Source of the DNA: Pseudomonadota bacterium
Lineage (GTDB): Bacteria > Pseudomonadota > Gammaproteobacteria > Steroidobacterales > Steroidobacteraceae
Length of the DNA stretch: 42,916 nt
Direction of reading: 5' to 3'
Assembly: GCA_025360865.1 (NCBI GenBank)
Contig: JANYBG010000224.1
Location: forward strand, 1 to 42,916
This document shows, one piece after another, positions 27,412-39,252 of the stretch (within the stretch, counting starts at the first letter, position 1; every line of letters begins with the position of its first letter). The notes under the pieces are model-generated. The model made no database searches. It saw only the letters and a program-made list of their open reading frames with translations, and had not been told where the DNA came from. Position numbers and translations under genes: made by a program.

Positions 27412-27472
27412 CGGGGCGACGCGATGCGGCAAGCTAAGACCGCGCCGCGTGGTTCTAAGAAGGAGGCCGAGC

Positions 27473-28897
27473 GTGCAGACCAAGATGTTGATCGCGGGCC
27501 GGCTGGTCGCCGGCGACGGTGCGGGTGAGTCGATCCTGGATTCGGCGACGGGCAAGCTGATCGCCACGGTGCCGGCGGCGACGCCTGCGCAGGTGGAGGC
27601 GGCCGTCGCCGCCGCGGAGGCCGCCTTCCCGGCCTGGGCGCGGACGCCGCCGAAGGAGCGCGGCACTTTCCTGCTGCGCATCGCCGACCGTATCGAGGCC
27701 GAGGCGGCGGCGTATGCCGCGCTCGAGTCGGGCAACACCGGCAAGCCCCTGGCGGCGATGCTCGCCGATGAGATGCCCTCGATCGCCGACATCTTCCGCT
27801 ACTTCGCCGGAGTCTGTCGCGCGCCCCAGGGACTGGCGGCCGGGGAGTACCTCGCCGGCCACACGAGCATGATCCGCCGCGATCCGGTCGGGGTCGTCGC
27901 CTCGATCGCCCCATGGAACTACCCTTTGATGATGGCCGTGTGGAAGATCGCTCCCGCGATCGCCGCCGGCAACACGCTCATCCTCAAGCCCTCCGAGCAG
28001 ACCCCGCTCACGACGCTCAAGCTCGCCGAGCTGTTCGCGGAAATCCTGCCGCCCGGTGTGGTGAACGTCGTCTGCGGGCGCGGCGAGCCGGTCGGGCGCC
28101 TGCTCACGAGCCACCCGCGCGTGCGCATGGTCTCCCTCACCGGTTCCATCGGCACGGGACAGAAGATCCTGGCCGGCGCGGCCGACAACATGAAGCGCAC
28201 GCACATGGAACTCGGCGGTAAGGCTCCGGTCATCGTGTTCGACGACGCGGACATCGCCGAGGTGGTAGCGGGCGTGCGCACCTTCGGCTACTACAACGCC
28301 GGCCAGGACTGCACGGCGGCCTGCCGCATGTACGTGGGCAAGGGCATTTATGAGAAGGTCGTGGCGGAGCTGACGACCGCGGTGCGCTCGATCAAGCTCG
28401 GCACGCAGCAGGAGGAGGGGGTGGAACTCGGACCGCTGATCTCGGCGGCGCAGCGCGAGCGGGTCGCCGAGATGGTCGACCGCGCGGCCGCATCCAAGCA
28501 CGTGCAGATAACCACGGGCGGCAAGCCGCGTGCCGGTGGGGGCTTCTTCTACGAGCCGACCGTCATCGCCGGCGCCCGCCAGCACGATGAGATCGTGCAG
28601 CGCGAGGTTTTCGGTCCGGTTGTGTCTCTCACGCCTTTCAGCGATACCGACGAGGCGGTCCGCTGGGCGAATGACTCCGAGTATGGTCTGGCCTCATCGA
28701 TCTGGACCCGCGACATCGCGAAGGCGATGAACGTGGCGTCGCAGCTGCAGTACGGGGTCACCTGGATCAACACGCACTTCGCCACTGTCAACGAGATGCC
28801 CCACGGCGGCTTCAAACGCTCCGGTTACGGCAAGGACCTCTCGGTGTACGCGCTGGAGGACTACACCGTTACGCGCCATGTGATGGTGAAGCTCTGA
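27473..28897 (+). CDS. patD: Aldehyde dehydrogenase, PatD-like (4-aminobutyraldehyde or 4-trimethylaminobutyraldehyde dehydrogenase)
   Basis: 474 residues, the same length as E. coli PatD, and similar throughout: [55 protein letters not shown] and [14 protein letters not shown]. The catalytic Cys is residue 280, the general base Glu246. It oxidises a C4 amino-aldehyde with NAD(P). In PatD the product is GABA; the mammalian relative TMABADH makes gamma-butyrobetaine from 4-trimethylaminobutyraldehyde. Here it shares a promoter with carnitine genes and precedes a Pot-type binding protein, so either substrate fits. AAGGAGG at 27460-27466, six bases before the GTG, fixes the start; the ATG at 27485 is too late. 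Confidence 0.9.
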
Positions 28898-28899
28898 GC

Positions 28900-30033
28900 G
28901 TGCTGCCCGGTTCGCGCGCCCAAGCGCTGCTGCGCGCCCTTGAGGTGGGTGCGTTGCTTGCGCTGGCCGCGTGCGGCGGCGGCGCGCGCCCGGGCGCGCC
29001 GGCCGAGGAGGCCAAGGAGCTGCACGTCTACAACTGGGCGGACTACATCGGCAAGGACACGATCGCCGAGTTCGAGAGGCGCACCGGTATCAAGGTGATC
29101 TACGACACCTACGACGCGGATGAGACGCTGGAGGCGAAGATGATGGCCGGGGACTCCGGCTACGACGTGGTCAGCACCTCGACCGATTATTTCGCCCGGC
29201 AGATCAAGGCGGGCATCTACCAGCCCCTCGACCGGACGCTCCTGCCGAACTGGAAGAACCTGGACCCGCACGTGCTGGCGCTCGAGGCGGCGGCGGACCC
29301 GGGCAACGCCCACGCGATGCCCTACCTGCGGCACGTGAACGGGTTCGCCTACAACGTCGACATGATCCGCATCCGCATGCCAAATGCTCCCGTGGACAGC
29401 CTGGATATGATCTTCAAGCCCGAGATCCTCGAGCGCTTCGCCGACTGCGGCGTCACCTTCCTCGACTCCCCCGAGGACGTGCTGCAGCTGGCGCTGAATT
29501 ACCTGCGCCTGGACCCCAACACGACCCGCCCCGAGGATTACGCGCAGGCCGAGAAATTGCTGCTCAAGGTCCGTCCCTACATCCGCGCATTCGACTCCAG
29601 CGAATACATGAACGGGCTCGCCACCGGGGACTTCTGCATCTCAATGTCCTGGTCGGGGGACTATGCGACCTCGCGGGCGCGCGCCAAGGCCGCCGGAGTC
29701 GATGTGAACCTCGCCTTCACCGTGCCCAAGGAGGGCGCCAACGGCTCGTTCGACGCGCTGCTGATTCCCGCCGACGCGCCGCATCGCCTGGCAGCCCACA
29801 AATTCCTCGACTTCATACTGGAGCCCGAAGTGATCGCGCAGATCACCAACGAGATCCACTACGGTAACGACAACATCGCCGCCAACCCCTTCGTGAAGCC
29901 GGCCATCCTCCACGACCCGACGATCTATCCGACGCCTGCGATCGAGACGCGGCTGTATATGGCCACGGAAGCATCGCCCACGCTCGAACGCCTGCGCACG
30001 CGCACCTGGACGCGCATAAAGACCGACCTTTAG
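28900..30033 (+). CDS. potF: PotF-like polyamine-binding protein, predicted lipoprotein
   Basis: 377 residues, ABC-transporter periplasmic binding protein of the PotD/PotF family. Family segments are LHVYNWADYIGKDTIAEFER, VIYDTYDADETLEAKMMAG, QPLDRTLLPNWKNLDP, GVTFLDSPEDVLQLALNYL and MSWSGDYATSRA. The N terminus has a short hydrophobic stretch ending LALAAC, a lipobox with Cys25, so it may be anchored by lipid rather than free. The NWSDY of PotF is NWADY here (Ser to Ala in the ligand pocket) while the SWSGD aromatic-Asp element is kept; ligand range may differ. GTG at 28900 lies three bases after the patD stop. Permeases PotH/PotI are convergent next to it. Confidence 0.88.
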   Translation: MLPGSRAQALLRALEVGALLALAACGGGARPGAPAEEAKELHVYNWADYIGKDTIAEFERRTGIKVIYDTYDADETLEAKMMAGDSGYDVVSTSTDYFARQIKAGIYQPLDRTLLPNWKNLDPHVLALEAAADPGNAHAMPYLRHVNGFAYNVDMIRIRMPNAPVDSLDMIFKPEILERFADCGVTFLDSPEDVLQLALNYLRLDPNTTRPEDYAQAEKLLLKVRPYIRAFDSSEYMNGLATGDFCISMSWSGDYATSRARAKAAGVDVNLAFTVPKEGANGSFDALLIPADAPHRLAAHKFLDFILEPEVIAQITNEIHYGNDNIAANPFVKPAILHDPTIYPTPAIETRLYMATEASPTLERLRTRTWTRIKTDL

Positions 30034-30051: not shown

Positions 30052-30882
30052 TCAGCTGCCGGCCAGACGGATATCGGCGGCCCGCCTGCGGTCGCCGCGA
30101 ACCATGAGATAGCCCGCGGTGACCACGCACGCCCCCACGGCGCAGACGATAATGCTCGCCAGCGCGTTGATGTCCGGGCTCACCCCAAGCTTCACCTTCG
30201 AGTAGATGACCATCGGCAGCGTGCTTGCCCCGGGGCCCGCCACGAAGCTCGAGATCACAAGGTCATCCAGGGAGAGGGTGAACGACAGGAGCCAGCTCGA
30301 TATCAGCGCGGGCGCGATGATCGGCAGGGTGATCTCCATGAACGCCCGCAGCGGGCTCGCACCCAGATCCATCGCGGCCTCCTCCAGCGCCCGGTCCGCG
30401 GCCTGCAGGCGTGACTGCACGGTGATCGTGACGTAGGCGGAGCAGAAGGTGACGTGCGAGAGCACGATGGTCGTGAACCCACGGTGCGGCCAGGCGAATA
30501 GCTGCAGCATGGACACGAACAACAGGAGCTGGGTGATGCCGGTGATGATCTCGGGCATCACCAGCGGCGCGTTCACCATCCCGGTGAGCAGCAGCCGGCC
30601 GCGGAAACGCGTGAAGCGCACCAGCGCGATGGCCGCCAGCGTGCCCAGGATGAGCGCGCCGGTGGAGGCGGCGATCGCCACTTCCAGTGACAGGAGCGCG
30701 GCCTGCAGCAGCTGCCGGTTATGCATCAGTTCGCCGTACCAGGCCGTGGAGAACCCGCCCCAGACATTCACCAGCGGAGAGGCGTTGAAGGAGTAGCCGA
30801 TCAGCACCAGAATCGGCAGGTACAAAATCGAGATGCCGGCGAACAGCATCGTGTTGAGGAATGCCGAAGAGCGTCGGTCCAC
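30052..30882 (-). CDS. potI: Polyamine-type ABC transporter permease, PotI-like
   Basis: 276 residues with about six membrane segments; the first is NTMLFAGISILYLPILVLIGYSF. The coupling helix (EAA loop) that contacts the ATPase reads EEAAMDLGASPLRAFMEITLPIIAPAL. It pairs with PotH to form the transmembrane channel of a putrescine- or spermidine-type importer. The start is GTG at 30882, sharing one base with the potH stop, so the two are translationally coupled. It converges on potF with an 18-bp gap. The ATPase is not adjacent but lies at 40490-41635. Confidence 0.9.
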   Translation of the reverse strand: MDRRSSAFLNTMLFAGISILYLPILVLIGYSFNASPLVNVWGGFSTAWYGELMHNRQLLQAALLSLEVAIAASTGALILGTLAAIALVRFTRFRGRLLLTGMVNAPLVMPEIITGITQLLLFVSMLQLFAWPHRGFTTIVLSHVTFCSAYVTITVQSRLQAADRALEEAAMDLGASPLRAFMEITLPIIAPALISSWLLSFTLSLDDLVISSFVAGPGASTLPMVIYSKVKLGVSPDINALASIIVCAVGACVVTAGYLMVRGDRRRAADIRLAGS

Positions 30883-31772
30883 TAGGCCTCGATCTGCCGC
30901 ACGTTGTAATACTGGTAGATCGCGATCGGACCGGCGAGCAGCAGCAGGAAGGCGATCGCCACGGCCGACGCCACCGGCCAGTCGTGGTTGCCGAAGAACT
31001 CATCCCAAAGCACCCGGCCGATCATGAGGTTGTTCGGGCCACCCAGGAGCGAGGGGATGACGAACTCGCCCACCGCGGGGATGAACACCAGCATCGCCCC
31101 GGCGATGACCCCGGGAATCGACAGCGGCAGCGTCACGTCAAGGAAAGCCCGCCGCGGCGTGCTGCCGAGGTCGCTCGCCGCCTCGAGCAGCGTCGGGTCG
31201 AGCTTCTCAAGCGTCGCGAACAGCGGCAGCACCATGAACGGCAGGTAGGAGTAAATGATGCCGATGTAGACCGCGACGCCGGTGTGCATGATGTGGAATG
31301 GCTGGTGGATCAGGCCCAGCCGCAGCAGCATCGTGTTAAGGAATCCGTTGTCACGGATGATTCCCTCCAGCGCGTACACGCGCAGGAGGAAAGAGGTCCA
31401 GAACGGCAGCATCAGCACCAACAGCAGTAGGTTCTGCGTGGACTTCGGCGCGCGCGCGATGGCATAGGCCATCGGATAGCCGAGCAGAAGACAGATGAGC
31501 GTTGAGAAGAACGCCGTGCGCAGCGAGTAAAGGTACGCGACGCCGTAAACCTGGTCGGTGAGCAGGTAGCGGTAGTTGCCCAGCGTGACCCGCAGCTGCA
31601 GGTGGTGATCGGCCGTCCACGAGATCACGTCCGTGAACGGGGGCACGCGCGGGGCGGCCTCGGCGAAGCTGATCTTGAAGGCGAAGGCAAACGGGATCAG
31701 GAAGAAGACAAACAGGAATATGAGCGGCGGCAGGATGATCAGCCAGCGGCCCGGGCGCCAGGGGTTTTTCAT
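30882..31772 (-). CDS. potH: Polyamine-type ABC transporter permease, PotH-like
   Basis: 296 residues from ATG 31772 (E. coli PotH is slightly longer). It begins KNPWRPGRWLIILPPLIFLFVFFLIPFAFAF, a typical first helix. The EAA loop is LEAASDLGSTPRRAFLDVTLPLSIPGV. The final helix ends near PIAIYQYYNVRQIEA. Longer N-terminal extension to 31862 adds a charged, non-homologous sequence and was not used. The gene is divergent from the TetR-Rieske regulator at 31883, with about 110 bp between, so that regulator may control it. First gene of the potHI pair. Confidence 0.88.
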   Translation of the reverse strand: MKNPWRPGRWLIILPPLIFLFVFFLIPFAFAFKISFAEAAPRVPPFTDVISWTADHHLQLRVTLGNYRYLLTDQVYGVAYLYSLRTAFFSTLICLLLGYPMAYAIARAPKSTQNLLLLVLMLPFWTSFLLRVYALEGIIRDNGFLNTMLLRLGLIHQPFHIMHTGVAVYIGIIYSYLPFMVLPLFATLEKLDPTLLEAASDLGSTPRRAFLDVTLPLSIPGVIAGAMLVFIPAVGEFVIPSLLGGPNNLMIGRVLWDEFFGNHDWPVASAVAIAFLLLLAGPIAIYQYYNVRQIEA

Positions 31773-31882
31773 GTTGTGCGATTTGCTCGTGCCTGCGCGC
31801 ATTGTGCGGGATAATCTCGCCGCCGGTGCAACAATTGCCTGAAGGGCGCGAACTCTTGCCAAGGCCGCGGGTGTAGCAACAA

Positions 31883-33451
31883 GTGTCTGGCCCCAGAACT
31901 TCCACGACGATCCCCGGAGCGTCCGCCGGCAACGGCAACACGCGCATCCGCCAGCGTCGGCGCCTGATCGACGCCTGCATTTCCGCGCTGCACATCTACG
32001 GGCCCTCGCGTACCACCGTGGAGAAAGTCGTGGCGCTGGCGGATCTGTCCCCCGGGATCGTGCGTTTCTATTTCGATTCCAAGGCGGCGATGCTGGTCGC
32101 CTCTCTGGAGTACCTGGCCGCGGAATTCGAGCACCGCGTCATGGCCCCGGTCGCGCAACTGAAGGATACCCCGGTCGCGGCGCTGCGGCTGCTCGTGGAC
32201 CTGTACCTGGACGCGGACATCGCCAGTCCTCGCAAGGTCTCGGTCTGGTACTCATTCTGGGGCGAGGCCAGCTCGCGCCAGGAGTACTACGACATCTGCG
32301 GCAAGAAGGACGATGACTTCGCGGCACTGGTGCGCGAACTCATCCAGCGCCTGATCGCCGCAAGCGGCGCGAAGCACCTGGATGCCGATGGGGTAGCCCT
32401 GGGCCTGATCGGGGTACTCGAGATCCTGTGGCAGGGCTTCGCCTTCCAGAGCGAGGCCAACATCAATCGCGCCGAGGCGGTGGGCCGCTCGCTGGCGTTC
32501 CTGCGGTCGGTATTTCCTGGGGAGTTCGCCGCCGAACCGGCCGCGCCGCCGCGGCCGGTGAGCACCGCCGCCGGCGCGCGCCTGCCGGCAAGCGCTTACG
32601 CCGATGCCAAGCTCCTGCGCGCCGAGCGCGAACAACTTCTGCGCACCGCGTGGCAGGTGCTCGGACACGAGGCCGAGTTGCGCATGGCGGGGGATTTCCT
32701 GACCGGGGACCTCGCCGGTGAGCGGGTGCTGGTGGTGCGCGCCGAGCGCGACCGCCTGCATGGCTTCCGCAATACCTGCCGGCGCAGTCCGCACGCGCTG
32801 GTGGCCGAGCGGCGCGGACACCTGCAAAGCGCCATCCGCTGCGCGACCCACGCGCTCACCTATACATTCGATGGGCAGCTGGTCGAGGGCAACACCCCGG
32901 GCGATCTCACCCCGCTGGAGATCACCACGCGCGGCCGGCTGGTGCTGGCCCGGGGCGCCGCGCCGCAGGTCGAATCGCGCGCGAGCGCCAGTCTCTGGGA
33001 TGCCTGCGGAGAACCGGTCGCCGGCGGCTTCGCCGAGCGCGACGTCGCGGCCGACTGGAAGGTGCTGGTGGAGCAGTGGCTGGAAAACCCGCAGCCGACC
33101 CAGCACTACCTGTTCCCGAACCAGCTGGTGGACGTGCGCCCCGCCGGGGCGGTGATCCTGCAGGTGACGCCAGGTTTCCCGGGCTACGCGCGCCTGCGCC
33201 GCTTCGATTTCAGCAACGAAGCGGCCGGAAAACGCGGCAGCCGCGCGGCGCGCGATGTCTGGCGGCGCGAAACCGACGCCTGGGTCGGCGAGCAGGTTCA
33301 GCTGGCCGAGTCCACCCAGTCCGGCCTTCTGGAAGCGGGCAACGAGCCAGGTGACGCGGGACCTGTGGCGCCCGCGCTGGCGGAGTTCCGCGACGCCATC
33401 ACCCGCCTGCTGGAGATGCTACCCGCTAGGCAAAGCGAGCGGGGGCGCTAG
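31883..33451 (+). CDS. BetI/TetR-type regulator fused to a degenerate Rieske oxygenase-like domain
   Basis: 522 residues, about 300 more than a normal TetR protein. Residues 24-70 form the helix-turn-helix (RRRLIDACISALHIYG, TTVEKVVALADLSPGIVRFYF), and 70-212 a BetI-like ligand domain with KVSVWYSFWGEAS. After an Ala/Pro-rich linker, 250-360 resemble a Rieske domain: TAWQVLGHEAELRMAGDFL, VLVVRAERDRLHGFRN. Cluster ligands are only partly kept: Cys299 is followed by Arg-Arg where Cys-x-His is needed, while Cys320 and His323 match CxxH. Residues 390-515 match the oxygenase C-terminal region (DWKVLVEQWLENPQPTQHYL, FPNQLVDVRP, GNEPGDAGPVAPALAEFRD), but about 80-90 residues carrying iron ligands are missing. 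Catalysis is unlikely; a sensor role is inferred. GTG start, no clear ribosome site. The 3' end overlaps the opposing Rieske gene by 26 bp. Confidence 0.82.
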   Translation: MSGPRTSTTIPGASAGNGNTRIRQRRRLIDACISALHIYGPSRTTVEKVVALADLSPGIVRFYFDSKAAMLVASLEYLAAEFEHRVMAPVAQLKDTPVAALRLLVDLYLDADIASPRKVSVWYSFWGEASSRQEYYDICGKKDDDFAALVRELIQRLIAASGAKHLDADGVALGLIGVLEILWQGFAFQSEANINRAEAVGRSLAFLRSVFPGEFAAEPAAPPRPVSTAAGARLPASAYADAKLLRAEREQLLRTAWQVLGHEAELRMAGDFLTGDLAGERVLVVRAERDRLHGFRNTCRRSPHALVAERRGHLQSAIRCATHALTYTFDGQLVEGNTPGDLTPLEITTRGRLVLARGAAPQVESRASASLWDACGEPVAGGFAERDVAADWKVLVEQWLENPQPTQHYLFPNQLVDVRPAGAVILQVTPGFPGYARLRRFDFSNEAAGKRGSRAARDVWRRETDAWVGEQVQLAESTQSGLLEAGNEPGDAGPVAPALAEFRDAITRLLEMLPARQSERGR

Positions 33452-34589
33452 CCAGCCGCGCCTCCGGTATCCGCGCTCGCAGTATCTCGTGGAACTCGAG
33501 CATCCAGCCTTCGATGCTGGACAGGGGGCCGGGCTCGTAGCTGGGTGAGGCCAGCCCCTGCTGCACGCGTGTGCACAGGAACTCATCCTCGCGCTGCACC
33601 TGGCGATTGATGCGGGCATTGAGGTAACGCACGATTTTCATCTCGCGCCGCTCGTCAGGCAGCCCGAAGACCTGGCCACGGATGGTGCACCTGCCCGGTC
33701 CGCGCGGCAGCACCTGGAAGAAATCCATCTGGTCGGGGAACACGTCGATTCCCAGGTTCGGCAGCATGCTGTAGAAGCTCCAGCGCCTGCGGTCCACCTC
33801 GGGCAGGTGCGTCGATACCGGGCCGATCATCTTCTGGTACATGCGCTCGGTCCACTTACTGGAGGGGCGCTCGCGCAGCCAGCTAGCCCCGCGGGCGACC
33901 CCGCTGTCGGTGCTCGACTGGTCGTCGAAGTCCGGGGTCAACATGCGAAACAGGCCCGGATGACCGATCGGCACGTGGTAAGACTCAAGGTAGTTGTCCA
34001 TCGCGACCTTCCAGTCGCATTCCCAGTGCTCGAGGTAAAGCGGCGCCAGGGGGCGCATACGCTCGAAATGATGGGCGACGAACTCGGCGCCGATGTCTCC
34101 CCAGATCCGCTCGAGCGAGGGCATATCGCCGTCGAGGCACACGAACACGAATCCTGAGAACACCTGCAGGCGCACCGGCTTCAACCCCAGCTGCGCGCGG
34201 TCCAGCGGCGGGAAAGTCTCGCGGTTGGGCATGCCGAGAAGTGCACCGGTCAACTTGTACGACCACCCGTGATAGGGGCAGGTGATCGCACCCGGGCAAT
34301 TGCCCTCGCCCTGGAGGATGCGGGCGCCGCGATGACGGCACACGTTGTGGAACGCCTGGATCTCACCCTGCGTGCTCTTGACCACCATGATGCTCTCAAG
34401 GCCGATCTCGATGGCCATGTAGTCGCCCGCATTGGCGAGCGAACTGACGTGGCACACCAGCTGCCAGCTCGGTCGCAGTATCCGCTCGTACTCGAGACGG
34501 CTCATTTCCGGATGGTTGTAGACCCAGGCGGGCAGGGCGCGCTTTAGGGTCGGGGGCGTCGCTTCAACCGGGCGGGCGTTCGCGTTCAT
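33426..34589 (-). CDS. Rieske-type non-heme iron oxygenase, large subunit
   Basis: 387 residues, intact. The Rieske ligands are Cys84, His86, Cys104 and His107 (FHNVCRHRGARI, TCPYHGWSYKL). The mononuclear iron site has His205 and His210 in ESYHVPIGHPGLF with bridging Glu202; the third carboxylate is probably Asp286 or Asp289. It resembles glycine-betaine, carnitine and stachydrine N-demethylating or C-N cleaving oxygenases (GbcA, CntA families), so a quaternary amine is a likely substrate. No reductase subunit is encoded in the window, so electrons must come from elsewhere or downstream. The start, ATG at 34589, faces the operator-like repeats at 34611-34656. Confidence 0.88.
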   Translation of the reverse strand: MNANARPVEATPPTLKRALPAWVYNHPEMSRLEYERILRPSWQLVCHVSSLANAGDYMAIEIGLESIMVVKSTQGEIQAFHNVCRHRGARILQGEGNCPGAITCPYHGWSYKLTGALLGMPNRETFPPLDRAQLGLKPVRLQVFSGFVFVCLDGDMPSLERIWGDIGAEFVAHHFERMRPLAPLYLEHWECDWKVAMDNYLESYHVPIGHPGLFRMLTPDFDDQSSTDSGVARGASWLRERPSSKWTERMYQKMIGPVSTHLPEVDRRRWSFYSMLPNLGIDVFPDQMDFFQVLPRGPGRCTIRGQVFGLPDERREMKIVRYLNARINRQVQREDEFLCTRVQQGLASPSYEPGPLSSIEGWMLEFHEILRARIPEARLASAPARFA

Positions 34590-34610: not shown

Positions 34611-34656
34611 TATATGGTTATATAATTCTAGCCCAGAAAACTATACGATCATATAG
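34611..34656. promoter_or_regulatory. Two 14-bp AT-rich operator-like palindromes
   Basis: TATATGGTTATATA at 34611-34624 and TATACGATCATATA at 34642-34655 agree at 11 of 14 positions, consensus TATAYGRTYATATA. The second sits in a 16-bp near-palindrome CTATACGATCATATAG, with one mismatched pair. Their centres are 31 bp apart, about three helical turns, so both face the same side of DNA. They lie between the divergent Rieske and aminotransferase genes. The TetR-Rieske fusion protein is the obvious candidate regulator. Binding is inferred. Confidence 0.6.
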
Positions 34657-34731: not shown

Positions 34732-36081
34732 ATGGCCAGAACGATGACCAGGAACAATGAGCATTACCGGCGGGCTCTGACGAAGTTGCCGCTGGGCGTC
34801 GCCTCGAACTTCCGCTTCTGGGGGGAGGACCGCACGATCTACGTCAAGGAAGGACGCGGCGCGCGCGTCACCGACCTCGACGACAACGTCTACGTCGACT
34901 ACCGCATGGGATATGGCCCTGCGATCCTCGGCTACGCGGATCCGCGGGTGGATGCGGCCGCGCGCGAAGGTATGAAGCTCGGCGGCGTGTTCGCGCTGTC
35001 CACCGAGCGTGAGTACAAGGTGGCCGAGCGCATCTCGAGCATGGTGCCGGCCGCGGAACTGGTGCGCTTCTCGAACTCGGGCACCGAGGCGGTGATGGCG
35101 GCGCTGCGACTGGCGCGCGCCTTCACCAAGAAAGACAACTATGTGATTCTCGAGGGCAGCTACCACGGCCTCTTCGACGCGGCCATGTGGTACACGCCGA
35201 TGGAGAAGTGGGCCGAGGTCGGCGACCCGGTCGTGCACCCCTACAGCGAGGGTGTGCCGCTCGCGACCCGCAATTTCGCGCACTTCGTGCAGGCGAACGA
35301 TGCCAACCAGCTCGAGGATGTCCTCAAGCGCCACGGCGGCTCCATCGCTTGCCTCCTTATCGAGCCGATCATGGGCAACTGCCTGGGCATCGCCGCGGAT
35401 CCGGCCTACATGCGCGCCGCCCGTGAGCTGTGCGATCGCCACGGTGTGGTCCTGATCATCGATGAGGTGAAGACCGGCTTCCGCGTCGCCAAGGGCGGCG
35501 CGCAGGAACTGTACGGGATCCGCGCGGACCTGTGCACCTTCGCCAAGGCGGTCGCCAACGGCTATCCGATCTCCGTTCTCGCTGGCCGCGAGGACATCAT
35601 GCGCAAGGTGGGCAAGGGCGTCGCACACGGTGGCACTTACACCGCGCACCCGGTCTCGCTAGCCGCCGCGGAAAAGACCCTGGAGATTCTCGCCGAGACC
35701 GACGCGCTCGAGAAGCTCGCCAACTACGGCACCCGCCTGCGCAACGGCAAGAGCGCGATCCTCAAGGCGCGCGGCATCGCGCACAGTTTCGTGGGTCACC
35801 CGTCCATGAGTGGCCTGTACTTCGCCGCGCAGCCACCGCGCACCTACCGCGACTGGAAGGGCAGCGACTACACTTTCTACGACGCGGTCGCCAAAGTGCT
35901 GCACGATGAACTCGTCCTGTGCGAGCCGGACTCCCGCGAGCCATGGTTCATGTCCGCGGCGCATGATGAGTCGTGCCTGAAGGACACGCTCAGAGGATTC
36001 GAGGTCGCGATCGACGCCACCCTCAATTCGCCCGCGAGCACGCAAGGGGCTGGCCGGACGCCGGCCAGCGCCGGCCAGTAG
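34732..36081 (+). CDS. Class III PLP-dependent aminotransferase (glutamate-1-semialdehyde aminomutase-like)
   Basis: 449 residues. Class III elements seen: SNSGTEAVMAALRLARAFT at 114-132, the PLP-ring Asp244 in LIIDEVKTGFR, and the PLP Lys272 in TFAKAVANGYPISVLAG. Among class III enzymes it is closest to the HemL-like branch, but a haem role is unlikely given its place. It is the first gene of an operon with two flavoproteins, a GcvT-like protein and PotG. The likely role is removal of an amino group from an imported amine or amino acid. The Ala/Gly-rich last 15 residues lie outside the fold. GAGAG lies upstream of the ATG. Confidence 0.88.
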   Translation: MARTMTRNNEHYRRALTKLPLGVASNFRFWGEDRTIYVKEGRGARVTDLDDNVYVDYRMGYGPAILGYADPRVDAAAREGMKLGGVFALSTEREYKVAERISSMVPAAELVRFSNSGTEAVMAALRLARAFTKKDNYVILEGSYHGLFDAAMWYTPMEKWAEVGDPVVHPYSEGVPLATRNFAHFVQANDANQLEDVLKRHGGSIACLLIEPIMGNCLGIAADPAYMRAARELCDRHGVVLIIDEVKTGFRVAKGGAQELYGIRADLCTFAKAVANGYPISVLAGREDIMRKVGKGVAHGGTYTAHPVSLAAAEKTLEILAETDALEKLANYGTRLRNGKSAILKARGIAHSFVGHPSMSGLYFAAQPPRTYRDWKGSDYTFYDAVAKVLHDELVLCEPDSREPWFMSAAHDESCLKDTLRGFEVAIDATLNSPASTQGAGRTPASAGQ

Positions 36082-36088
36082 CGTGGGT

Positions 36089-37687
36089 ATGGGAGTGACC
36101 AATCGCTACGATGCGATCATCGTTGGCGCAGGACACAACGGGCTGGTGAACGCCTGCTATCTGGCGCGCGCGGGACTCAAGGTCCTCGTGCTCGAGCGCA
36201 ATCCCTTCGTGGGTGGCGCCGCGGTCAGTCGCAGCCTGTACGACGGGTTCACATACTCCAACTGCTCGTACGTCTGCAGCCTGCTTCGCACTGAGATCAT
36301 CCGCGCGCTGGCTCTGCCTCAGCATGGCCTGCAGATCATCCCCTACGAGGGCGGCTGCACGATGATGCGCGACGGCGGCCATCTGGCCGTATACGACAAC
36401 CATGACGCGCTGCGCCGTGAGATCGCGCGCCACTCCCCGCACGACGCCGAGGCGTACGAGCGCTACGTGCGCGACATGCTGCGTCACTGCCGCTTCATCA
36501 AGCCGCTGCTGCTGCGCGAGCCACCGGACCCGACCTCGTTCCGGCCGCGCGACATCCACGAGCTGATGTTCCTCGGCAAGCACTTCCACAACCTCGGCGA
36601 GGCGCGCATGTACGACACGCTGCGCTTCTGGACGATGAGCTGCGCGGACATGCTCGAGGAGTACTTCGAGAGCGAGATCGTCAAGGCGCACATGGCCGGC
36701 AGCTCCATCATCGGCACGGCCCTGGGGCCGCGCTCCGCGGGCACCGCCTACGTTCTACTGCATCACTACATGGGCAGCATCGATGGCGCCGTGGGCGCAT
36801 GGGGCTTCGCGCGCGGCGGCATGGGCGCGATCACCCAGGCGCTGGCCTCCTCGTTCAAGGCCAGTGGCGGGGAGGTGCGGGTCAGCGCCCCGGTGGAGCA
36901 GATACGGGTGCGCGGCGGGCGCGCCACCGGCGTGGTGCTGGATGACGGCGAGGAGATCTCAGCCCCGGTCGTGGTCTCCAACATGGACGTGAAGCGCACA
37001 TTCCTGAAGACCGTGGCTGCCGAGCACCTGCCGGCGGAGTTCATCGACCAGGTGCGCAAGTTCAAGATCCGAGGCTCCTCGGGCAAGCTCAACATCGCCC
37101 TCGACGGGCTGCCGAGCTTTCCGGCGATCCCGCAGGGTTCGCCCGCCATGCGGGGCGACCTGCACATCACCGACACCATCGAGATGCTCGAGCGCGGCTA
37201 CGACGACTGGAAAGAGGGGCGCTGGTCGCGCGCGCCTTACGTCGACATGCTGATTCCGACGCAGATCGACCCGACCATGACACCCGACGGCAAGCACTAC
37301 ATGTCGGTATTCGTGCAGTACTGTCCCTACCAGCTCGCCGACGGGGACTGGACGGACGCGAAGCGCCAGGCCTTCGGCAAGACCGTCATCGATGCGATCG
37401 GCGCGCACAGCCCGGACTTCAAGGACCTCATTCTGCACGCGGAGATCCGCACTCCGAAGGACATCGAGAACGAGGTGGGGCTCACCGAGGGCAACATCTT
37501 CCAGGGTGAACTCACCTTCGACCAGCTGCTGTTCAACCGCCCGGTGCCCGGCTACGCGCAATACCGCGCGCCCGTGCGCGGCATGTACATGTGCGGCTCG
37601 AGCACGCACCCTGGCGGGGGCGTCATGGGCGCGCCGGGGGCGAACTCCGCGGCCGCGATCCTGCGTGACCTGGGGCGCAAAGTATGA
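36089..37687 (+). CDS. FAD-dependent oxidoreductase, PYROXD2/phytoene-desaturase-like (copy 1)
   Basis: About 532 residues. The Rossmann fingerprint is AIIVGAGHNGLVNACYLARA near residue 10, followed by VLVLERNPFVGGAAVSR. The C-terminal FAD motif is YMCGSSTHPGGGVMGAPGANSA, typical of the phytoene desaturase/PYROXD2 group. Such enzymes oxidise C-C or C-N bonds with flavin. The neighbouring gene encodes a second member with the same architecture, so the two may act as a heterodimer or on consecutive steps. No carotenoid genes are near, so a carotenoid role is unlikely. ATG at 36089 or GTG at 36083 are both possible; both fall within 10 bases of the aminotransferase stop. Confidence 0.86.
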   Translation: MGVTNRYDAIIVGAGHNGLVNACYLARAGLKVLVLERNPFVGGAAVSRSLYDGFTYSNCSYVCSLLRTEIIRALALPQHGLQIIPYEGGCTMMRDGGHLAVYDNHDALRREIARHSPHDAEAYERYVRDMLRHCRFIKPLLLREPPDPTSFRPRDIHELMFLGKHFHNLGEARMYDTLRFWTMSCADMLEEYFESEIVKAHMAGSSIIGTALGPRSAGTAYVLLHHYMGSIDGAVGAWGFARGGMGAITQALASSFKASGGEVRVSAPVEQIRVRGGRATGVVLDDGEEISAPVVVSNMDVKRTFLKTVAAEHLPAEFIDQVRKFKIRGSSGKLNIALDGLPSFPAIPQGSPAMRGDLHITDTIEMLERGYDDWKEGRWSRAPYVDMLIPTQIDPTMTPDGKHYMSVFVQYCPYQLADGDWTDAKRQAFGKTVIDAIGAHSPDFKDLILHAEIRTPKDIENEVGLTEGNIFQGELTFDQLLFNRPVPGYAQYRAPVRGMYMCGSSTHPGGGVMGAPGANSAAAILRDLGRKV

Positions 37688-39252
37688 CCACCCCGGCGCG
37701 CGCGCGGTACGACGCGGTCATCGTCGGGGGTGGCCACAATGGCCTGGTCTGTGCGACCTATCTTGCCCGCGCGGGCCGGTCGGTCCTGGTGCTCGAGGCC
37801 GCCGACCGCGTAGGGGGCGCCGCTGTGACGCGTGAGTTCGCCCCCGGGTTCCAGGTTTCCGCAGGCGCGCATCTGCTGCATCTGATGCCGCCGGCGCTGC
37901 TCAACGACCTGGACCTCGGGGCGCATGGGCTCAAGTTCGCCGCGCATAACCTGCCCACTGTCGCCCTGTCCGCTGACGGACAGCACCTGTCGATGCAGGC
38001 CGGCGGTGGCTCGGGCGCGCGGCTTTCAGCCGCCGACGCCCGCGCCTACACCGAGTGGCGGCGACTGATGCGACAGATCTCCGGGGCGCTGCACCCGCTG
38101 CTCAATGGGGCGCCGCCACGGCTCGGCACTGATGCCTGGAGTGACCGCAAGTCACTCATGCGGCTGGGCTGGCGCATCCGCAGGCTCGGTCGGCGCGACA
38201 TGCGCGAGCTGCTGCGCATCGGTCTCATGAACGTGCACGACCTGCTCGAGGATCGCTTCGAGAGTCCGCAGCTCAAGGGCGCGCTGGCGCTGGATGCGGT
38301 TCTGGGCACCAACTACGGGCCCCGTTCGCCCGGCAGCGTGCTGTCGCTGCTGTATCGCCTCGCCGCCACCGGCGGCACCGAGGTCCTGTCGCAGCCGCAA
38401 GGGGGCCTGGGGGCGTTATCCGCGGCCCTCGGCCGCGCCGCCACTGCCGCAGGCGCCGAGATTCATACGGCGGCCCCGGTGGAGCGCATCCTGGTGAAGG
38501 ATGACCGCGCGAGCGGGGTGGCGCTGGCCTCCGGACAACAGGTCCTCGCGCCCGTGGTCGTTTCCAACGCCGACCCGAAGACCACCTTCCTGGGACTTCT
38601 GGGGGCTGAATTCCTCGATGCGGGATTCGTCAGGCGCATCACCCACCTGCGCACCCGGGGCTTCACCGGTAAAGTGCACCTGGCGCTCGATCGGCTGCCG
38701 AAGTTCCCAGGCCTCGACCCCGAATCGCTGCGGGGTCGCTTACTGGTGGCCCCGGACGCGGACTACATCGAGCGCGCCTACAACCATGCCAAGTACAACG
38801 AGTACTCGGCCGTCCCCATGCTGGAAGTCACGGTGCCGAGTCTTTCGGATCCCTCCCTCGCGCCGGCCGGGAGCCATGTGGTCTCGATCGTGGTGCAGTA
38901 CGCCCCTTACGAGCTAAACGAAGGCTGGGCCACCGGGCGCCAGCGCTTCACCGACATCGTGATCGACACCCTGGGCGCGTATGCGCCGGGGCTGCGCGAG
39001 TGCGTGCGCGCGAGCGAGCTGCTGACGCCCGCGGACATCGAGCGCGAGTTCCGCATCCATGGCGGTCACTGGCATCACGCCGAGATCGCGTTCGACCAGT
39101 TCTTCATGGTACGCCCCGTCCCCGGGGCCACCCAGTACGAGACCCCGCTGCCGGGGCTGTTCCTGTGTGGCGCGGGTTGCCATCCGGGTGGCGGCGTCAT
39201 GGGACTCGCCGGCCGCAACGCGGCGCGCCAGGTCATGAACCGGGCCGCCTGA
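37684..39252 (+). CDS. FAD-dependent oxidoreductase, PYROXD2/phytoene-desaturase-like (copy 2)
   Basis: 522 residues. The N-terminal motif is AVIVGGGHNGLVCATYLARAG, and the C-terminal motif is FLCGAGCHPGGGVMGLAGRNAA. Throughout, the order of elements matches copy 1, such as VVVSNADPKTTFL/VVVSNMDVKRTFL and LRTRGFTGKVHLALD/KIRGSSGKLNIALD, showing a tandem duplication that has diverged substantially. Its ATG overlaps the stop of copy 1 (ATGA), so expression is coupled and roughly equal, as expected for subunits of one complex. The substrate is unknown; the context suggests an amine intermediate. Confidence 0.86.
   Translation: MTTPARARYDAVIVGGGHNGLVCATYLARAGRSVLVLEAADRVGGAAVTREFAPGFQVSAGAHLLHLMPPALLNDLDLGAHGLKFAAHNLPTVALSADGQHLSMQAGGGSGARLSAADARAYTEWRRLMRQISGALHPLLNGAPPRLGTDAWSDRKSLMRLGWRIRRLGRRDMRELLRIGLMNVHDLLEDRFESPQLKGALALDAVLGTNYGPRSPGSVLSLLYRLAATGGTEVLSQPQGGLGALSAALGRAATAAGAEIHTAAPVERILVKDDRASGVALASGQQVLAPVVVSNADPKTTFLGLLGAEFLDAGFVRRITHLRTRGFTGKVHLALDRLPKFPGLDPESLRGRLLVAPDADYIERAYNHAKYNEYSAVPMLEVTVPSLSDPSLAPAGSHVVSIVVQYAPYELNEGWATGRQRFTDIVIDTLGAYAPGLRECVRASELLTPADIEREFRIHGGHWHHAEIAFDQFFMVRPVPGATQYETPLPGLFLCGAGCHPGGGVMGLAGRNAARQVMNRAA

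Follow-up and report, generated by a model that had tools for sequence, protein, structure and literature searches.

A BetI-type TetR repressor fused to a shortened, catalytically dead Rieske-oxygenase fold with a conserved, putative metal site

Enzyme folds joined to DNA-binding domains are represented by PutA, in which the enzyme is active, and by regulators of the MocR/PdxR type, in which it serves as a sensor only; both differ in folds and DNA-binding families from the fusion described here, which occurs in intact-looking and in dead states. BetI/TetR repressors (TIGR03384, PF13977), the closest relatives of its front part, equally combine TetR_N and TetR_C_6 and are likewise associated with palindromes in the promoter of a divergent amine-oxidation operon. 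ThnY of Sphingopyxis granuli is described as resembling dioxygenase reductases and having taken up a role as redox regulator of dioxygenase genes, and ThnA3/ThnY, in the same account, set a precedent for oxygenase electron flow feeding back on transcription (PMC4814904). While a type of dioxygenase component would have turned into a regulator of dioxygenase genes in both cases, in ThnY via its redox state, ThnY is portrayed there as reductase-like, unfused and working with a LysR activator, and the protein discussed here is a terminal oxygenase fused to TetR (PMC4814904). The repressor RsrR, the DNA binding of which is controlled by the redox state of a [2Fe-2S] cluster, is a possible analogue, but is presented as a member of the Rrf2 family with no relation to oxygenases (PMC5015018). 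Judged by titles, no paper about a TetR-Rieske-oxygenase fusion was found in the literature searched. Enzymes turned regulators are known, but the presence of intact fused, dead and lost states together among relatives is rare, and allows a TetR-oxygenase with full active site, a dead form with a selectively kept site and a tail-less repressor to be compared.

The window, the 42,916-nucleotide stretch of DNA that was analysed, contains at 31883-33451 (+) a single frame, open from a GTG start, which encodes a protein of 522 aa (P0001). The initial annotation had read this frame as a fusion of a BetI-like TetR protein, a Rieske-like domain and an oxygenase tail, and the Pfam profiles agree: the TetR_N DNA-binding domain (residues 30-73; 31970-32101, +) scores 21.8 bits, slightly below the cut-off of 24, and the BetI-type TetR_C_6 ligand-binding/dimerisation domain (residues 97-202; 32171-32488, +) 48.2 bits, above the cut-off of 27. 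Within residues 250-515, for which an oxygenase origin had been proposed, the Rieske profile PF00355 (residues 257-340; 32651-32902, +; domain also recognized in the AlphaFold2 model and by Foldseek) reaches 34.8 bits, above its cut-off of 20.3, and Ring_hydroxyl_A (residues 409-510) 22.5 bits, slightly below 24.9, the latter in what remains of the catalytic domain of the oxygenase (residues 386-512; 33038-33418, +). Equivalog models fit neither half: the front scores 68 bits against BetI TIGR03384, far below the cut-off of 201.3, and the Rieske part 56.5 bits against NCBIfam GbcA, again far below cut-off. TetR_N is the best-conserved part of the family, with a mean top-residue frequency of 0.92 over residues 25-75 (31 full-length rows of 42), and what sets the protein further apart from BetI repressors is its additional oxygenase fold of 300 residues.

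AlphaFold2 predicted the whole protein with a pLDDT of 85.8 and a pTM of 0.60 (family alignment of 35 sequences) and residues 227-522 alone with a pLDDT of 90.7 and a pTM of 0.89 (30 sequences). Searched with this tail model, Foldseek returned Rieske-oxygenase chains as the best 50 matches, as judged by their titles, with CntA (6y8j, E 5.5e-17) and stachydrine demethylase (3vca, TM 0.80 by query length) at the top, so that a folded domain of oxygenase type is predicted for the tail, as opposed to an accident of the reading frame. The predicted fold of residues 227-522 as well as Cys1, Cys2 and His2 are shared with the Rieske alpha subunits CntA, stachydrine demethylase and GbcA; on the other hand, the tail is without the iron site, has the His at C+2 replaced, is approximately 90 residues shorter and is fused to a repressor. 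The motif pairs which had been pointed out between tail and neighbouring oxygenase recur in BLASTP alignments (E 1e-18 for the Rieske part; E 9e-5 for residues 410-506 against 275-370 of the neighbour). Equally, the iron site YH-x4-H is absent, as had been noticed, its columns being deleted or altered, with 21 residues between the DWK and PN motifs compared with 85 in the neighbour, and the column of the iron-site Asp holds Gln. By sequence and model, the tail is a shortened, catalytically dead Rieske-oxygenase fold.

Divergent from the fusion gene lies a PotH/PotB-like polyamine permease gene (30882-31862, -; true start probably further in), accompanied by those for a PotI/PotC-like permease (30052-30882, -; family by Pfam and position alone), a PotF/PotD-like binding protein (28900-30033, +) and an aldehyde dehydrogenase of the aminobutyraldehyde dehydrogenase subfamily (27449-28897, +; NF010000, above cut-off); the ABC importer is of the putrescine type. 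An intact Rieske oxygenase (33426-34589, -), of quaternary-amine type by its best solved relatives, is encoded convergently and overlaps the fusion gene by 26 bases. A class-III aminotransferase gene (34732-36081, +; best NCBIfam model GntE/GSAM-like, below cut-off) probably opens the target operon, with those for CrtI/CrtO-like FAD oxidoreductases 1 (36083-37687, +) and 2 (37684-39252, +) in the same direction. This order of divergent Pot permeases, fusion, opposite-strand oxygenase, aminotransferase and two FAD oxidoreductases is stable among relatives, and no electron-donor gene was found among the window genes scanned. The inducer of the system is likely an amine or betaine, as far as gene content tells. 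The CrtO/CrtI-like pair (36083-39252) stands in tandem inside a cluster of polyamine type.

A palindrome pair is located in the interval between oxygenase and aminotransferase genes, where the initial annotation had placed a candidate operator (34611-34656): palindrome 1 (34611-34624) deviates by one mismatch from TATAYGNNCRTATA, and palindrome 2 (34642-34655), 31 bp from it, matches exactly. Allowing one mismatch, 42 scanned loci yielded 40 sites, 39 of them within this interval, and of 28 loci whose interval can be delimited, 26 contain the palindrome (it is absent from L021 and L047), the consensus having been drawn from the same intervals in which it was counted. Such conservation across loci supports that proposal, and the pair at 34611-34655 is likely the operator. 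Co-conservation, synteny and a nearly invariant TetR_N lead us to infer that the dead fusion binds the pair, and regulation of the neighbouring oxygenase operon by the fusion is plausible. An operator in the permease/fusion interval was also considered, but palindromes listed for 59 upstream regions, short of a systematic motif search, revealed no obvious shared element. The genome of the window holds two further places within one mismatch of TATAYGNNCRTATA (on contigs C216 and C213), and exact matches elsewhere in the 18 genomes searched have differing contexts. The C216 site (G000:C216:82295-82308; positions 6296-6309 of L172; also L173) is an exact palindrome between a GcvT-like gene and one that, by eye, is ispG; it may belong to another TetR protein, and a similar palindrome occupies the same place in genome G008.

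The fusion is carried by a group of bacteria from soil and water. In the family to which the window belongs, 75 of 217 genomes (own included), from 8 of 25 genera, match at E <= 1e-40; five of the 75 (G126, G155, G156, G157 and G159) have the intact type introduced below. A profile search across the order found a match at 1e-30 in 143 of 396 genomes, and outside the family, among the matches listed, these are TetR-only with the single exception of a fusion in G286. From a scan of a species-genome collection, 42 of 78 pattern-matched stretches are relatives, and plasmids gave one match, a TetR-only protein with 34% identity. Altogether 58 further distinct fusion proteins of the dead type were collected (59 rows with that of the window); a count of homologs had been called for by the initial annotation. 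Relatives share 60-87% identity with the window protein in the TetR half and 23-73% in the tail (29 tails).

Nine relatives (L102-L105, L112-L114, L125 and L129) are TetR-oxygenase fusions of approximately 600-640 residues in which the catalytic residues missing from the window protein are in place, all nine having the full CxH/CxxH Rieske and YH-x4-H...D iron-site residues. The six that were scanned exceed the cut-offs for all four Pfam domains, TetR_N included, with 104.9-133.4 bits for Ring_hydroxyl_A, and the oxygenase part of L102-L105 is 41-43% identical to the free oxygenase of the window. An AT-rich palindrome (e.g. TTAAATGATCATTTAA in L103) directly precedes the intact fusion in six of eight loci (none in L104 and L105); these palindromes are partly alike, with no single consensus. 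As TATAYGNNCRTATA has no exact match in five intact-fusion genomes (G155, G126, G286, G780 and G560), their upstream palindromes differ from it. L102 and L103 adjoin an aldehyde dehydrogenase gene (PuuC being the best hit for that of L103) and a gene resembling glutamine synthetase, for which gamma-glutamylputrescine synthetase is the best model, below cut-off. In L112 and L113 (L126, L127) the intact fusion lies directly beside a free Rieske oxygenase, and the pair may act together.

The initial annotation derived the tail from a duplication of the neighbouring oxygenase, an origin that the phylogeny disfavours. In the oxygenase tree (64 of 127 rows: 29 of 59 dead, nine of nine intact and 26 of 59 free), 29 dead tails and eight intact fusions are set apart, with 96/97 support, from 26 free enzymes and L114; in the AU test, joining dead tails with window-type free oxygenases gave p 0.074, which is no firm rejection, and joining them with the second type of oxygenase p 0.004. 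In the own genome, the Rieske part of P0001 is 36% and 33% identical to other oxygenases versus 30% to the neighbour (single segments). The TetR tree, which carries a long-branch warning, splits 27 fused from 18 unfused TetRs (mostly the best TetR-only hits of the order-wide and a further search) by a 100/99 branch, with p 0.33 for a clade without L114. Since both trees favour a shared origin, the tail would be a decayed fused enzyme and not a copy of the neighbour; we favour, on these phylogenies, one fusion origin for eight intact fusions and the dead form, followed by decay in one branch. Uniting every fusion, L114 too, in a single clade is rejected (AU p 0.0016), the two halves of L114 disagreeing on its placement, so that it may represent a second fusion, a domain swap or a misplaced row. 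In this protein (L114/L128, genome G653), the TetR half goes with other fusions and the oxygenase half with a free enzyme, and Ser occupies C+5.

The decay is not uniform. In 46 C-terminally complete dead tails, neither iron-His column holds a His, and the Asp is kept in nine. In the Rieske loops, the window protein departs from the canonical C-x-H ... C-x2-H set: loop 1 (Cys299-Arg-Arg301-Ser-Pro303-His304; 32777-32794, +) reads C-x4-H, with Arg301 at C+2 and His304 at C+5, and is followed by Cys320-x-x-His323 in loop 2 (32840-32851, +). The initial annotation had concluded from Arg301, next to retained Cys299, Cys320 and His323, that the cluster is partial and lacks one ligand. Its reading of the residues is correct, but the site may be complete, for among 51 dead tails with a readable loop (eight of the 59 rows were set aside) Cys1, Pro at C+4, His at C+5 and Cys2 are each found in 51 and the second Rieske His in 50; L190 has the same loop pattern. 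A His at C+2 remains in only seven of the 51, which keep both His, and is R, Q, E, V, A, N, I or K in the others, with five changes by parsimony on a tree of 51 dead and eight intact rows built without the loop columns concerned. In free oxygenases, all 58 rows (two of which, L113 and L118, represent a single gene) have a His at C+2 and none has one at C+5; in intact fusions the figures are 9/9 and 8/9. Of 374 aligned columns, 17 reach 95% in the dead tails, seven of these within residues 297-323, and Pro303, fixed there, is mostly Gly in free enzymes. Across 48 of the 59 dead sequences (the other 11 being truncated, tail-less or frame-broken), eight of the nine intact ones (L114 excluded) and 58 of the 59 free ones, 33 columns are nearly invariant among free oxygenases; in dead tails 25 of them have lost this fixation, and the eight still fixed include Cys1, Cys2 and His2. 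One ligand lost and a substitute frozen three residues further on is the pattern expected of ligand relocation, and the alignment suggests that the ligand moved from C+2 to C+5 and a metal site, possibly a [2Fe-2S] cluster, was retained. Active CntA has, in the alignment, a His at C+5 beside the canonical CxH, and the C+5 His therefore need not be a ligand. A study by Kimura (2005) deals, by its title, with the tolerance of Rieske proteins to mutation of His ligands.

The reading we prefer, with a probability of about 0.42, is that the repressor descends from a fused repressor-enzyme, the dead tail of which, with a metal centre, tunes the response at the palindrome pair. The ancestor would have been a BetI-type TetR repressor joined to a complete Rieske oxygenase, as in the nine relatives, most loci of which show a palindrome upstream, as expected for an autoregulated gene. 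In the window lineage, the oxygenase half would have lost the non-heme iron site together with approximately 64 surrounding residues, the separate oxygenase (33426-34589) encoding the intact active site, while the tail would have kept the oxygenase fold and a Cys2His2 site of Cys299, His304, Cys320 and His323. The TetR half would bind the pair at 34611-34655, repress the divergent oxygenase and aminotransferase/FAD genes and respond, via its own BetI-type pocket, to an amine or betaine. We infer that a metal is bound in the tail, most likely as a [2Fe-2S] cluster of modified Rieske type, the presence or redox state of which would tune that response; for example, the tail might be a dummy electron acceptor which reports whether the oxygenase turns over substrate. 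That a Rieske-type cluster with shifted ligand (C-x4-H ... C-x2-H), inherited from a fused oxygenase, makes this TetR protein a reporter of redox state or electron flow in the oxygenase pathway under its control, the intact fusions being self-regulating enzyme-repressors, is possible, if doubtful. Were the shifted His a ligand, the coordination would be an unusual one of the Rieske type and a possible redox input for TetR proteins. As likely operator, target genes and key residues are specified, the question can be tested directly.

Alternatively, and somewhat unlikely in our estimation, the tail is the dying half of an enzyme, structural or oligomerising at most, with TetR alone regulating and the Cys/His pattern due to slow decay of the folding core. 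The tail is lost outright and TetR kept in eight genomes (L178-L184 and L188), where the protein ends 0-22 residues past the TetR core; rechecking the sequence 3' of the repressor in these eight revealed no tail (292 and 378 bases visible in L179 and L188). L185-L187 and L136 retain TetR with motif-less tail remnants of 67-103 residues, and the tail-less L040 and L042 keep both palindromes. Because tail-less relatives keep the repressor, two of them with both palindromes, the tail is not essential and, judged by these genomes, dispensable. Furthermore, in all 16 dead pairs with both values estimable, tail dN/dS exceeds that of the TetR half, and single dead fusions have lost loop 1 (L023) or the second His (L046). 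Yet dN/dS of the tail ranges from 0.13 to 0.53 among 17 dead pairs, well below 1, by a simple Nei-Gojobori estimate on GC-rich, partly saturated sequences, and 0.10 and 0.11 in two intact-fusion pairs, there not above the TetR half; the dead tail is, on these estimates, under relaxed but real constraint. The decay of a mere relic is also hard to reconcile with the confident tail model and with four loop residues kept in 51 of 51 tails and His2 in 50 while 25 of 33 columns fixed in free enzymes loosened; apart from L046, proteins without the site have the loop or the greater part of the domain missing. The gene order is rearranged in the tail-less group L181-L184 and L188, where the repressor gene is followed by what reads as a permease gene of the same orientation and preceded by oxygenase-like sequence. 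The dead fusion L046, from an Elstera sp. MAG, adjoins a window-type oxygenase and may reflect transfer of the cluster.

Less probable than decay is a metal-free sensor, the main idea of the initial annotation, in which what is left of the oxygenase pocket would bind the substrate of the pathway and relay the signal to TetR, as might be suspected from the match of the predicted fold to quaternary-ammonium oxygenases and from a position among amine uptake and oxidation genes. The approximately 64 residues around YH-x4-H are the stretch that was lost, however, the cluster loops contain seven of the tail's 17 best-conserved columns, TetR_C_6 by itself already offers a ligand pocket, and tail-less homologs exist. 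Still more improbable is that the Cys2His2 residues bind zinc, merely stabilising a small loop domain. Zinc sites tolerate this kind of spacing, and two Cys and two His are present in all but one of the 51 tails, but the canonical Rieske residues of intact relatives argue that the inherited cofactor is an iron-sulfur cluster, and seven dead tails keep the canonical His in addition. That two genes were joined by an assembly or annotation artefact, for which one could cite the 42 scan hits being MAG records and the broken frames of L028 and L134/L189, is refuted by 50 further distinct proteins from other genomes with the same join and a readable cluster loop, 34 aligned homologs being 40-79% identical to the window protein, the frame of which is open throughout.

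A second, distant Rieske oxygenase with approximately 25-30% identity to the query oxygenases is encoded in eight loci (L022, L026, L027, L028, L030, L035, L044 and L049), where it is positioned between the aldehyde dehydrogenase and the window-type oxygenase.
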